Assembly (NCBI GenBank): GCA_026400755.1
Contig: JAPLOM010000053.1
Coordinates: forward strand, 1 to 43,941
DNA length: 43,941 bases
DNA from: Alphaproteobacteria bacterium
GTDB lineage: Bacteria; Pseudomonadota; Alphaproteobacteria; CADEGL01
Direction of reading: 5' to 3'
The translations under genes were made by a program, and so were the position numbers. Positions 41,434 through 43,941 of this stretch are shown here, piece after piece (positions within the stretch are counted from its first letter, which is position 1; each line of letters begins with the position of its first letter). The notes below the pieces were generated by a model. That model saw only the letters and a program-made list of their open reading frames with translations, searched no databases and was not told the origin of the DNA.

Positions 41434-42271
41434 ATGGACCAGCTTCGCTACCGCGAATTCAAGATTTTGCTCAAGCCCGAGCGTTTTTTTCGCGCCGGAG
41501 CGGTTCGAAGAATATTGGAAGATCGTCGGCCAGATCGCGAAAAAGAACGGCGTCGGCGTCACCACCAACAAAGACGCCTTCCACCGCTTGATCCGCGAAG
41601 TTCTGTTCTACGACACCAAGACCTACGATCTCTACAAGAACGCCTTCATCCTGCGGAAGCGGACCTTCTATAAGAACGGCTGGCCTGAAACGAACCACGA
41701 GCTGACGGTCAAGTACCGGCATCCGGAATTCAAGGAAGCCTCCGCCGTAGACGTGAACCCGCTGATCCCGGGCGAGCGCAAGATCAAGTTCAAGGAAGAG
41801 ATCCTGCCGCTCAAGAACGAACTGGGCGGAATGCGCAGCCTCTATTCGCACAATTGCGTGCTCTATACGCCGAACATCGTGCTGACCCAGGGCCTCGCGG
41901 ATATCGCGAAGGTTTTCCCCGGCATGCAGAAGATCGGGCTCTTGCCGAAATCCAAGATTCAACTCGTCAATCACATGGCGGTAGAAGAACTGCAGGTGAA
42001 CGCGGGCGTGCTGGACTTCGGTCACGGTCACGAGGCCAACGCAACCATCGCCATCTGGCGCAATCGCGCGTCCGAAACCTCGCTGATCGGCGAGTTCGCC
42101 TTCCAGGCCAAGTTCAAGCGCTACGAAGACATCCATTCGGCCGCGAAAGCAAAGACCGAAACCTTCTACAAGGCCATGCAGACCAACGCGCCGGATTGGG
42201 TACAGCTGGGCACCACCAAGACGGCCATGATCTACGGCATGGGCAAGACTCTCGTGCGCGCCCATGAGTGA
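41434..42271 (+). CDS. Conserved hypothetical protein, reading frame broken at a 7-T run
   Basis: Two overlapping frames encode one protein. From ATG 41434 (GAGGGGG about 8 nt upstream) the reading is MDQLRYREFKILLKPERF; at the T run 41484-41490 it must move to the other frame, which continues FAPERFEEYWKIVGQIAKK... to 42271. With six T instead of seven the two join perfectly as KPERFFAPERF, giving about 278 residues. The rest matches a conserved family of unknown function that I know only by its patterns (REVLFYDTKTYDLY, KYRHPEFKEASAVDVNP, LGTTKTAMIYGMGKTL), perhaps a CYTH-like phosphate-chain fold, though I cannot show that. It overlaps the chromate transporter start by 8 bases. Sequencing error, a real frameshift and slippage all remain possible. 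Confidence 0.72.
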
Positions 42272-42893
42272 GGCGACGTCCGCCCCCGCTGAGCCTACCG
42301 CCCCTGCGGGCCCCGTTCCGCTGCGCGAAATTTTCCTGACGTTTCTGGTAATCGGCGCGACCAGTTTCGGTGGCGGCGTCGTGGCCTATCTGCGCAACAG
42401 CCTGGTCCGCGCCAAGAAGTGGCTCGACGAAGACCAGTTCCTGGAAGCGCTGGAGATTTCCCAGACCTTGCCGGGCCTGAATGCCACGAACATGAGCGTG
42501 ATCGTGGGCGACCGGCTGCGCGGCCCCTTGGGCGCGGTCGTGGCTTTCCTGGGCATGACGATGCCCGGCGCCGCGATGATGACGGGGCTAGGTGTCGTGT
42601 ATGCCCTGCACAAGGACCATTCGGTTGTTAGCAGCGTGCTGGTCGGCGTCGGCGCCGCGGCCGTGGGGCTTTTGGCTTCCGTCACCATCCAGGTGGGGCG
42701 CAAGCAACTCGAGCATGTTCTGGATCTCAGCATCGTCGCCGCGACCATCCTGATGATCAGCGTGTTCCATATTTCGATGCCGATCGTCCTTCTGGTCCTG
42801 GGGCCGATCGCCGTCTTCATCGATCGCCCGCACCCGAAGCGTATTCATTTGCGCCGGCGGCATCACGGGCACGACATCAAGCCGGCGGATTGA
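42264..42893 (+). CDS. Chromate transporter family protein, N-terminal-type half
   Basis: A 209-residue membrane protein of the short-chain ChrA family, in which two about 190-residue proteins together replace the long ChrA. The signature is FLVIGATSFGGGVVAYLRNSLV (about residues 28-49, read in parts) and EISQTLPGLNATNMSVIVGDRLRG. About five to six helices are predicted. The family exports chromate using the proton gradient; some members have other anion substrates. It overlaps the hypothetical gene by 8 bases and is followed 5 bp later by the second half, now broken by an insertion sequence. A His/Arg-rich tail (HPKRIHLRRRHHGHD) closes the protein. Confidence 0.88.
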   Translation: MSEATSAPAEPTAPAGPVPLREIFLTFLVIGATSFGGGVVAYLRNSLVRAKKWLDEDQFLEALEISQTLPGLNATNMSVIVGDRLRGPLGAVVAFLGMTMPGAAMMTGLGVVYALHKDHSVVSSVLVGVGAAAVGLLASVTIQVGRKQLEHVLDLSIVAATILMISVFHISMPIVLLVLGPIAVFIDRPHPKRIHLRRRHHGHDIKPAD

Positions 42894-42898
42894 GCGCG

Positions 42899-43150
42899 AT
42901 GGATTCCTCCCCTCCGTATCTGTCGATCCTCGGCGTCTTCGCGCTGCTTTCCGTCCTCGCGGTCGGCGGCGGCGCGGCGGTGCTGCCCGAGACCAAGGCG
43001 CTGACGGTCACCCACTTCCACTGGCTGGCCGACGACGAGTTCCGCGACATCTACGGTCTCGGCCAGCTTTCACCGGGTCCGAACATGCTGATGGTGATCG
43101 CCATCGGCTATTGGGTCGCGGGTTACCCCGGCGCGGCGCTGGCCTTTCTA
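42899..43150 (+). pseudogene. Chromate transporter second half, interrupted by an IS
   Basis: The ATG at 42899 opens a second ChrA half: ILGVFALLSVLAVGGGAAVLPE (residues 10-31), IYGLGQLSPGPNMLMVIAIGYWVAG. The match ends at codon CTA (43148-43150), where the insertion sequence begins; the frame then reads six IS codons to a stop at 43166-43168. The missing 3' part should lie beyond the window: the bases after the IS (TAGGC) restore CTA-GGC (Leu-Gly) once one TA copy is removed. Without its other half, the transporter pair is probably inactive. Confidence 0.88.
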
Positions 43151-43166
43151 GGGCCTGTCGTCAATT
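43151..43166. repeat. Left terminal inverted repeat of the IS
   Basis: GGGCCTGTCGTCAATT, a perfect complement of 43921-43936. It also contains the original transposase stop codon on the minus strand (TGA at 43163-43161). Confidence 0.95.
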
Positions 43167-43848
43167 GAGCCAGGAGAGCGCTCCGACCATGTGAACCGCG
43201 GCCAGGTAATTCCAGCGGTCTTGTCGTAACGCGTGGCGATGGCGCGAAACTGCTTCGCCCAACAAAAGAAATTCTCGACCAGATGACGTGCTTCATACAA
43301 AGGTTCGTCATACGATCTGCGAGCCTTGCGATTGCTCTTCGGTGGAATAACCGCGATTTTTCCCGCCACGCTCAGCGGTTCGATCACGGCTCCGTGCAGA
43401 TCATGGGCCTGCCCCTTGGTCAGGACGATCTTCAGCGGATGACCCAGTGCGTCCACCATTACGTGTATCTTGGTGCTCAGTCCGCCTTTGCTTTTGCCGA
43501 TCGCCTGATCCTCACCGACTTTTTTTTGGCGCCGGCGCTGTGTTGGTGGGCCCGCACAATCGTACTGTCGATCATCGCGTATTCGTTGTCCGCATCGGTC
43601 GCCAGAAGCGCGAGGATACCGTGCCAGACGCCGCTTTTGGCCCATCGGCTCCAACGCCGGTGCGTGTTGTTCCAGTCGCCGAAGCTCTCGGGAAGATCGC
43701 GCCAGGGGATCCCGGTTCGGTAGCGGTGGATCACCGCGTCGACGAAGCGGCGGTTATTGGCCGCCGTTACCCCCACGGACCCGGCTCGTCCTGGCAGAAT
43801 GTCCTTGATCAGGGCCCATTGGTCGTCACGGAGTTGGTGGGGGCGCAT
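43161..43848 (-). pseudogene. IS5/IS427-type transposase, decayed
   Basis: The first frame, from ATG 43848 (a GTG at 43896 is also possible), encodes LRDDQWALIKDILPG, RRFVDAVIHRYRTGIPWRDLPESFGDW and the first catalytic Asp in MIDSTIVRAHQH. At the eight-A run (T run at 43519-43526 on the plus strand) it should shift -1 at A-AAA-AAG to the second frame, which goes on with GEDQAIGKSKGGLSTKIH, then ARHLVENFFCWAKQFRAIATRYDK with the catalytic Glu. Two lesions are visible: between GQAHDLHGA and VIEPL about 25-30 residues with the second catalytic Asp are missing, and after YDKTA one base is lost, so the ending NYLAAVHMVGALSWLN is out of frame. It should be inactive. Confidence 0.85.
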
Positions 43849-43920
43849 GCGGTCAGCCTTCGGTGGAACTGACACCCCATGAATCGAAGAAACCACCGCG
43901 CCGGAAGCCCCCTCACGGCT

Positions 43921-43936
43921 AATTGACGACAGGCCC
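43921..43936. repeat. Right terminal inverted repeat of the IS
   Basis: AATTGACGACAGGCCC, a perfect complement of 43151-43166. It is followed by TA-GGC, the second target copy and the continuation of the interrupted gene. Confidence 0.95.
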
Positions 43937-43941
43937 TAGGC

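Follow-up and report, generated by a model that had tools for sequence, protein, structure and literature searches.

How does an insertion sequence come to have perfect ends, an intact target duplication and a transposase that is broken twice? Such an element lies at the right end of the window, the whole stretch of 43,941 nucleotides analysed here. It may have jumped by its own means and decayed where it landed, or it may have arrived already damaged, carried in trans by an intact relative as a MITE-like passenger, as a sequence-only reading of the same DNA had proposed. We compared the element with its relatives, with the remainder of its own genome and with a congeneric genome, and we weigh both origins below.

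The element and its insertion site

The element is 786 bp long and lies on the minus strand (43151-43936), as does its transposase. Its left terminal inverted repeat, on the side of the transposase start (43921-43936, minus strand), and its right one, on the side of the transposase end (43151-43166, plus strand), are 16 bp each. They are complementary at 16 of 16 nucleotides, or over 19 nucleotides when the palindromic CTAG target is included, and the exact ends described from the sequence alone were thus confirmed. A pattern derived from these ends, with up to two mismatches allowed, had 2 matches in the window against 0.00 expected in shuffled sequences.

The TA target dinucleotide is found on both sides, its left copy inside CTAG (43149-43150) and its right copy at 43937-43938, with the contig ending 3 bases beyond. 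Since just 5 bases, TA included, lie to the right of the element, the window alone provides weak evidence for the duplication. However, the left flank of the element, once joined to the flank found on contig C53, forms one open chromate-transporter frame, and the joined gene aligns gap-free with the uninterrupted gene of G001, the sole congeneric genome searched for this empty-site comparison (746/825 nt, 90%). Judging from this continuity, C53 is very probably the true right neighbour of the window, and the duplication is real. The intact TA duplication of the sequence-only reading therefore stands.

The gene hit by the insertion encodes a half-size chromate transporter, with its 5' part at 42890-43150 (plus strand) and its 3' part on C53. 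It is the second of two such genes, which lie in tandem across 42264-43150 of the window and the end of C53; the second one is disrupted by the element.

Two lesions in the transposase and a family-wide frame change

The transposase is encoded in two frames. The first, orfA (139 aa, 43477-43896, minus strand), has a DUF4096 match at 2e-24 and scores 123.1 bits with NF033580, the NCBI model for IS5-family transposases, which has a cut-off of 110 bits. It carries an IDSTIVRAH motif, which we take to be the site of the first catalytic Asp. A comparison of orfA with solved structures gave no match at E values up to 1. The second frame, orfB (168 aa as an open frame, 43148-43654, minus strand), scored 101.8 bits with NF033580 on its own and stays under the cut-off because it is only part of the protein and is without the block that contains the second Asp.

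This missing block is the first of the two lesions. Compared with L040, its closest relative, the element has lost exactly 69 bp, or 23 codons, at position 548/549 of the insertion sequence (junction at 43388-43389, minus strand). The deletion is in frame, a multiple of three with clean flanks, and the codons lost relative to L040 include ADKAYD. An ADK(A/G)(Y/F)D-type motif is present in 66 of the 80 related loci that we retained as the best of 405, contig ends having cut some of the other 14. We take the first Asp of this motif to be the second catalytic residue. On this assumption the DDE catalytic set of the fused protein would be incomplete.

The second lesion is the loss of one base near 43214, close to the C-terminus of the transposase (43213-43215, minus strand; the exact base is not assignable). 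It is seen against 7 of 8 aligned relatives, those that are homologous at this point; the eighth, L062, is not homologous there. With this base gone, the end of orfB is translated out of frame and continues across the inverted repeat as far as a TAG stop contributed by the target site. Both defects had been noted before, as a transposase without the block of the second catalytic Asp and with a 1-base frameshift near its end, and the comparison with relatives upholds both, the catalytic role of the Asp being presumed. The deletion is known from one assembled contig, at an assembly break.

A third frame break is missing from the sequence-only reading. The passage from orfA to orfB coincides with a run of eight A (43520-43527, minus strand; T8 on the plus strand), at which a programmed -1 frameshift presumably takes place. 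Runs of 6 to 8 A occur at the orfA/orfB frame change in all 8 aligned relatives, L040 having eight as well, so that this frame change is a feature of the family and not a lesion. Among 66 relatives, the second-Asp motif lies at -1 to the orfA frame in 52, in the same frame in 7 and at +1 in 7. Outside the two lesions and this frame change, the frames are open.

Relatives and family assignment

Scanning genome contigs yielded 405 relatives, and we retained the best 80. Both ends could be recognised, with at most 4 mismatches each, in 64 of these 80 loci. Among these 64, TA flanks the element on both sides in 60 and the CTA...TAG arrangement is seen in 42, while lengths range from 829 to 999 bp with the exception of one element of 733 bp. 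One locus, L043, with CTA on its left side and TAA on its right, agrees with a duplication of 2 bp and not of 4 bp.

L040 is the closest relative among the best 80 of 405, with 83% identity in OrfA and 80.5% at the DNA level over 519 nt. It is located on contig CALQHT020000399.1, from a metagenome bin labelled Nitrosovibrio, and it shares with the window element identical 16-bp ends, the run of eight A and TA on both sides. In contrast to the window element, it is 999 bp long, has a leader longer by about 143 bp and retains the 69 bp. The 733-bp element, L066, belongs to a groundwater Proteobacteria bin (contig JACQDN010000007.1, positions 1923-2655). Like the window element it is internally deleted and without the second-Asp block, with ends and TA intact, whereas its sequence has diverged and its deletion is a different and larger one; its block was lost independently. 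L066 is the sole other internally shortened element among the 64 two-ended relatives, which makes deleted copies with intact ends an occasional and unremarkable occurrence in this family.

The layout agrees with that of the IS427 group. According to PMC3281130, IS427-group elements of Paracoccus measure 832-865 bp, with repeats of 13-21 bp and 2-bp duplications except for ISPha1, which has 4 bp, and some members of the group have two overlapping ORFs with a frameshift motif. Measured against that account, the window element has repeats within the range (16 of 16), a 2-bp TA duplication, a match to the IS5-type transposase model and an orfA/orfB overlap at the A run that corresponds to the two-ORF layout, the frameshifting itself being putative; it differs in its length of 786 bp, in the missing second-Asp block and in the C-terminal frameshift. 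By these sequence features, the element is an ordinary IS5-family insertion sequence of IS427 type, a group name that follows from shared features and not from phylogeny. Since the second-Asp block is missing from its DDE set, we would file it as a defective derivative of IS5/IS427 and not as a functional member.

Age and selection

In 7 of 9 comparisons with relatives, dN/dS lies between 0.088 and 0.145. With L040 as the reference, orfA gives 0.088 and the front of orfB 0.106; the values against L055 and L041 range from 0.092 to 0.145, with 0.138 against L055 for the region past the deletion. No value could be computed for that region against L040 and L041, because synonymous change is saturated. 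These ratios show that selection acted on the lineage during most of its divergence. They fit recent damage, but as averages over the whole divergence they leave the lesions undated and do not place them before or after the last jump. The fairly recent jump proposed in the sequence-only reading is consequently plausible, given these low ratios and frames that are open beyond the lesions and the A-run frame change.

Copies in the genome and beyond

The assembly of this genome consists of 87 contigs. The last 141 bp of the window (43801-43941) overlap exactly with the start of contig C74 and, in reverse, with the end of C53, which marks an assembly break at a repeat; overlaps of 141 bases presumably reflect the assembler's word size. 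Perfect matches to the 16-bp end lie at five places in the genome, namely both ends in the window, the contig ends of C53 and C74, and C55. With C53 as the right flank of the window itself, these five matches correspond to three insertion sites, and the same left end is thus present at two sites besides our own (C74 and C55). Two further end-like matches, on C66 (1 mismatch) and C82 (2 mismatches), were set aside as chance; their surroundings did not look IS-like by eye and there was no whole-element DNA match.

The other two copies are visible only as 141 bp on C74 and about 25 bp on C55. The window ends at an assembly repeat break, so the interiors of the sister copies are missing. On C74 a reading frame continues past the end of the element, and its G001 orthologue is uninterrupted. 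On C55, the roughly 25 bp of the element are followed by the start of a different element. The latter (L007:1-148), which we believe to be probably IS3-like, has its end at ten junctions (C55 start, C55 end, C40, C57, C58, C6, C12, C63, C26 and C16), all of them contig ends that share 116-148 bases, and is one source of the breaks in this assembly.

We could not locate what lies to the left of the C74 copy: a 2,020-bp stretch of G001 upstream of the orthologous site had no match in our genome. A 10,114-bp stretch of G001 corresponds to C26, the end of which enters a different, repeated element, so that it was not possible to connect the C74 copy across its insertion site. In G001, the region that separates the C26 and C74 orthologous stretches comprises about 5.9 kb (G001:C5:53510-59413) with at most a few short and weak matches in our genome; it includes a gene that resembles DNA ligase D by eye. 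This gap may be an IS-associated deletion or the result of unbinned contigs.

The sequence-only reading had pointed to intact copies with the same ends and to other deleted copies with the same lesion as worth searching for. We found neither in the 87-contig assembly, whether by DNA search, with the end pattern or with the NF033580 model. A search of the genome with PF01609 gave no match either, but it also missed the element in the window and carries no weight. The ends of the probably IS3-like element all coincide with contig ends, indicating that interiors of repeated elements are easily lost in this assembly; the missing intact copy is therefore weak evidence.

Two overlapping sets of 191 and 385 relatives' genomes contained no close copy. 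Matches were obtained in 14 of the 191 genomes at an E value of 0.001 and in 3 of the 385 at 1e-30, the own genome being counted in both, and the best non-self match had 80% identity over 259 nt. In the two nearest genome matches, G070 and G352, the deletion point is occupied by about 69 additional bases, meaning that the block is present. Neither the deletion junction nor the 25-nt left end matched any viral contig exactly (0 each). Among plasmids, 112 records matched, none of them with 80% of the query covered in one place.

Decay in place or movement in trans

We consider it rather probable that the window carries a once-functional IS427-type element of the IS5 family, which inserted into CTAG, duplicated TA and lost its transposase through the 69-bp deletion and the loss of one base. 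In this scenario, frameshifting at the A run would formerly have yielded a fused transposase, with which the element would have moved autonomously into the CTAG site of the chromate-transporter gene. Both lesions would have arisen in situ after the jump, and too little time would have elapsed since then for the terminal repeats to change. Decay in place is the most economical account, as it requires no helper and fits all observations. On the other hand, the order of lesions and insertion was not observed, and the presence of several insertion sites leaves room for the movement of a copy that was already damaged.

That an already deleted element was moved in by a transposase supplied in trans from an intact relative sharing its ends is, in our view, unlikely. 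Perfect ends next to a remaining coding sequence that looks undecayed would suit this proposal, as would the same left end at C74 and C55, and review PMC10969869 does describe defective elements mobilised in trans. Contig C45 also passes unbroken across the point of the deletion, even though its final 141 bp are common to another site, and an alternative, intact interior was not found in the assembly; this is a faint hint. However, the unbroken left side of C45 would be equally expected if reads of the other copy had been pruned or its contig left unbinned. Moreover, C45 is unbroken at the left junction too, where a second full copy should cause a break; the assembly is thus incomplete around the second copy and allows no inference. 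Neither a second copy bearing the lesions nor an intact helper was found in the genome, and what flanks the C74 copy on its left could not be located. We regard as rather doubtful the further idea of a transposase-dead IS427-type element that was deleted before its jump and is spreading through the strain in trans, with the C74 copy carrying the same lesions. As for the likeness to MITEs, the element shares with them its intact ends, a non-functional transposase and, in principle, mobility in trans. Nevertheless, at 786 bp it is longer than the 50-500 bp given for bacterial MITEs in PMC10969869, and its amplification is unproven, so that the term deleted insertion sequence describes it better. 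The condition that the sequence-only reading had named as refuting it, a genome devoid of any other element with these ends, did not hold, as the same left end is present at two more sites. The trans proposal has no positive evidence and is unneeded.

The quality of the assembly raises another concern, namely that a short-read, possibly metagenomic, assembly introduced the deletion, the one-base loss or both by mistake where a repeat had collapsed. The contig does end in a repeat, with the 141-bp overlap common to two other contigs, and the second repeated element breaks in the same manner (10 of 10 matches at contig ends). Yet the length of the deletion is exactly divisible by three, its flanks are clean, and the independent L066, with ends and TA intact, also lacks the block, which demonstrates that such deletions occur; we therefore judge an assembly error improbable. 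Finally, one could read the broken frame as a working transposase encoded in two frames, with programmed changes between them, in line with the A runs of the relatives, the predominance of the second-Asp motif at -1 to orfA and the frameshift motifs of some IS427-group elements. This would account for the change at the A run only; the ADK(A/G)(Y/F)D block is kept by most of the best 80 of 405 related loci, and none of the other aligned elements with homology there shows the one-base loss. We give this explanation hardly any credence.

Among these explanations we retain decay in place. A contig that ends at an insertion sequence conceals the sister copies needed to judge mobilisation in trans. 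For the organism, an apparently young, inactivated insertion of IS5/IS427 type cuts a chromate-transporter gene that is intact in the congener, a matter of small weight beyond annotation. For the IS427 group, a frame break at the A run is not to be scored as damage.
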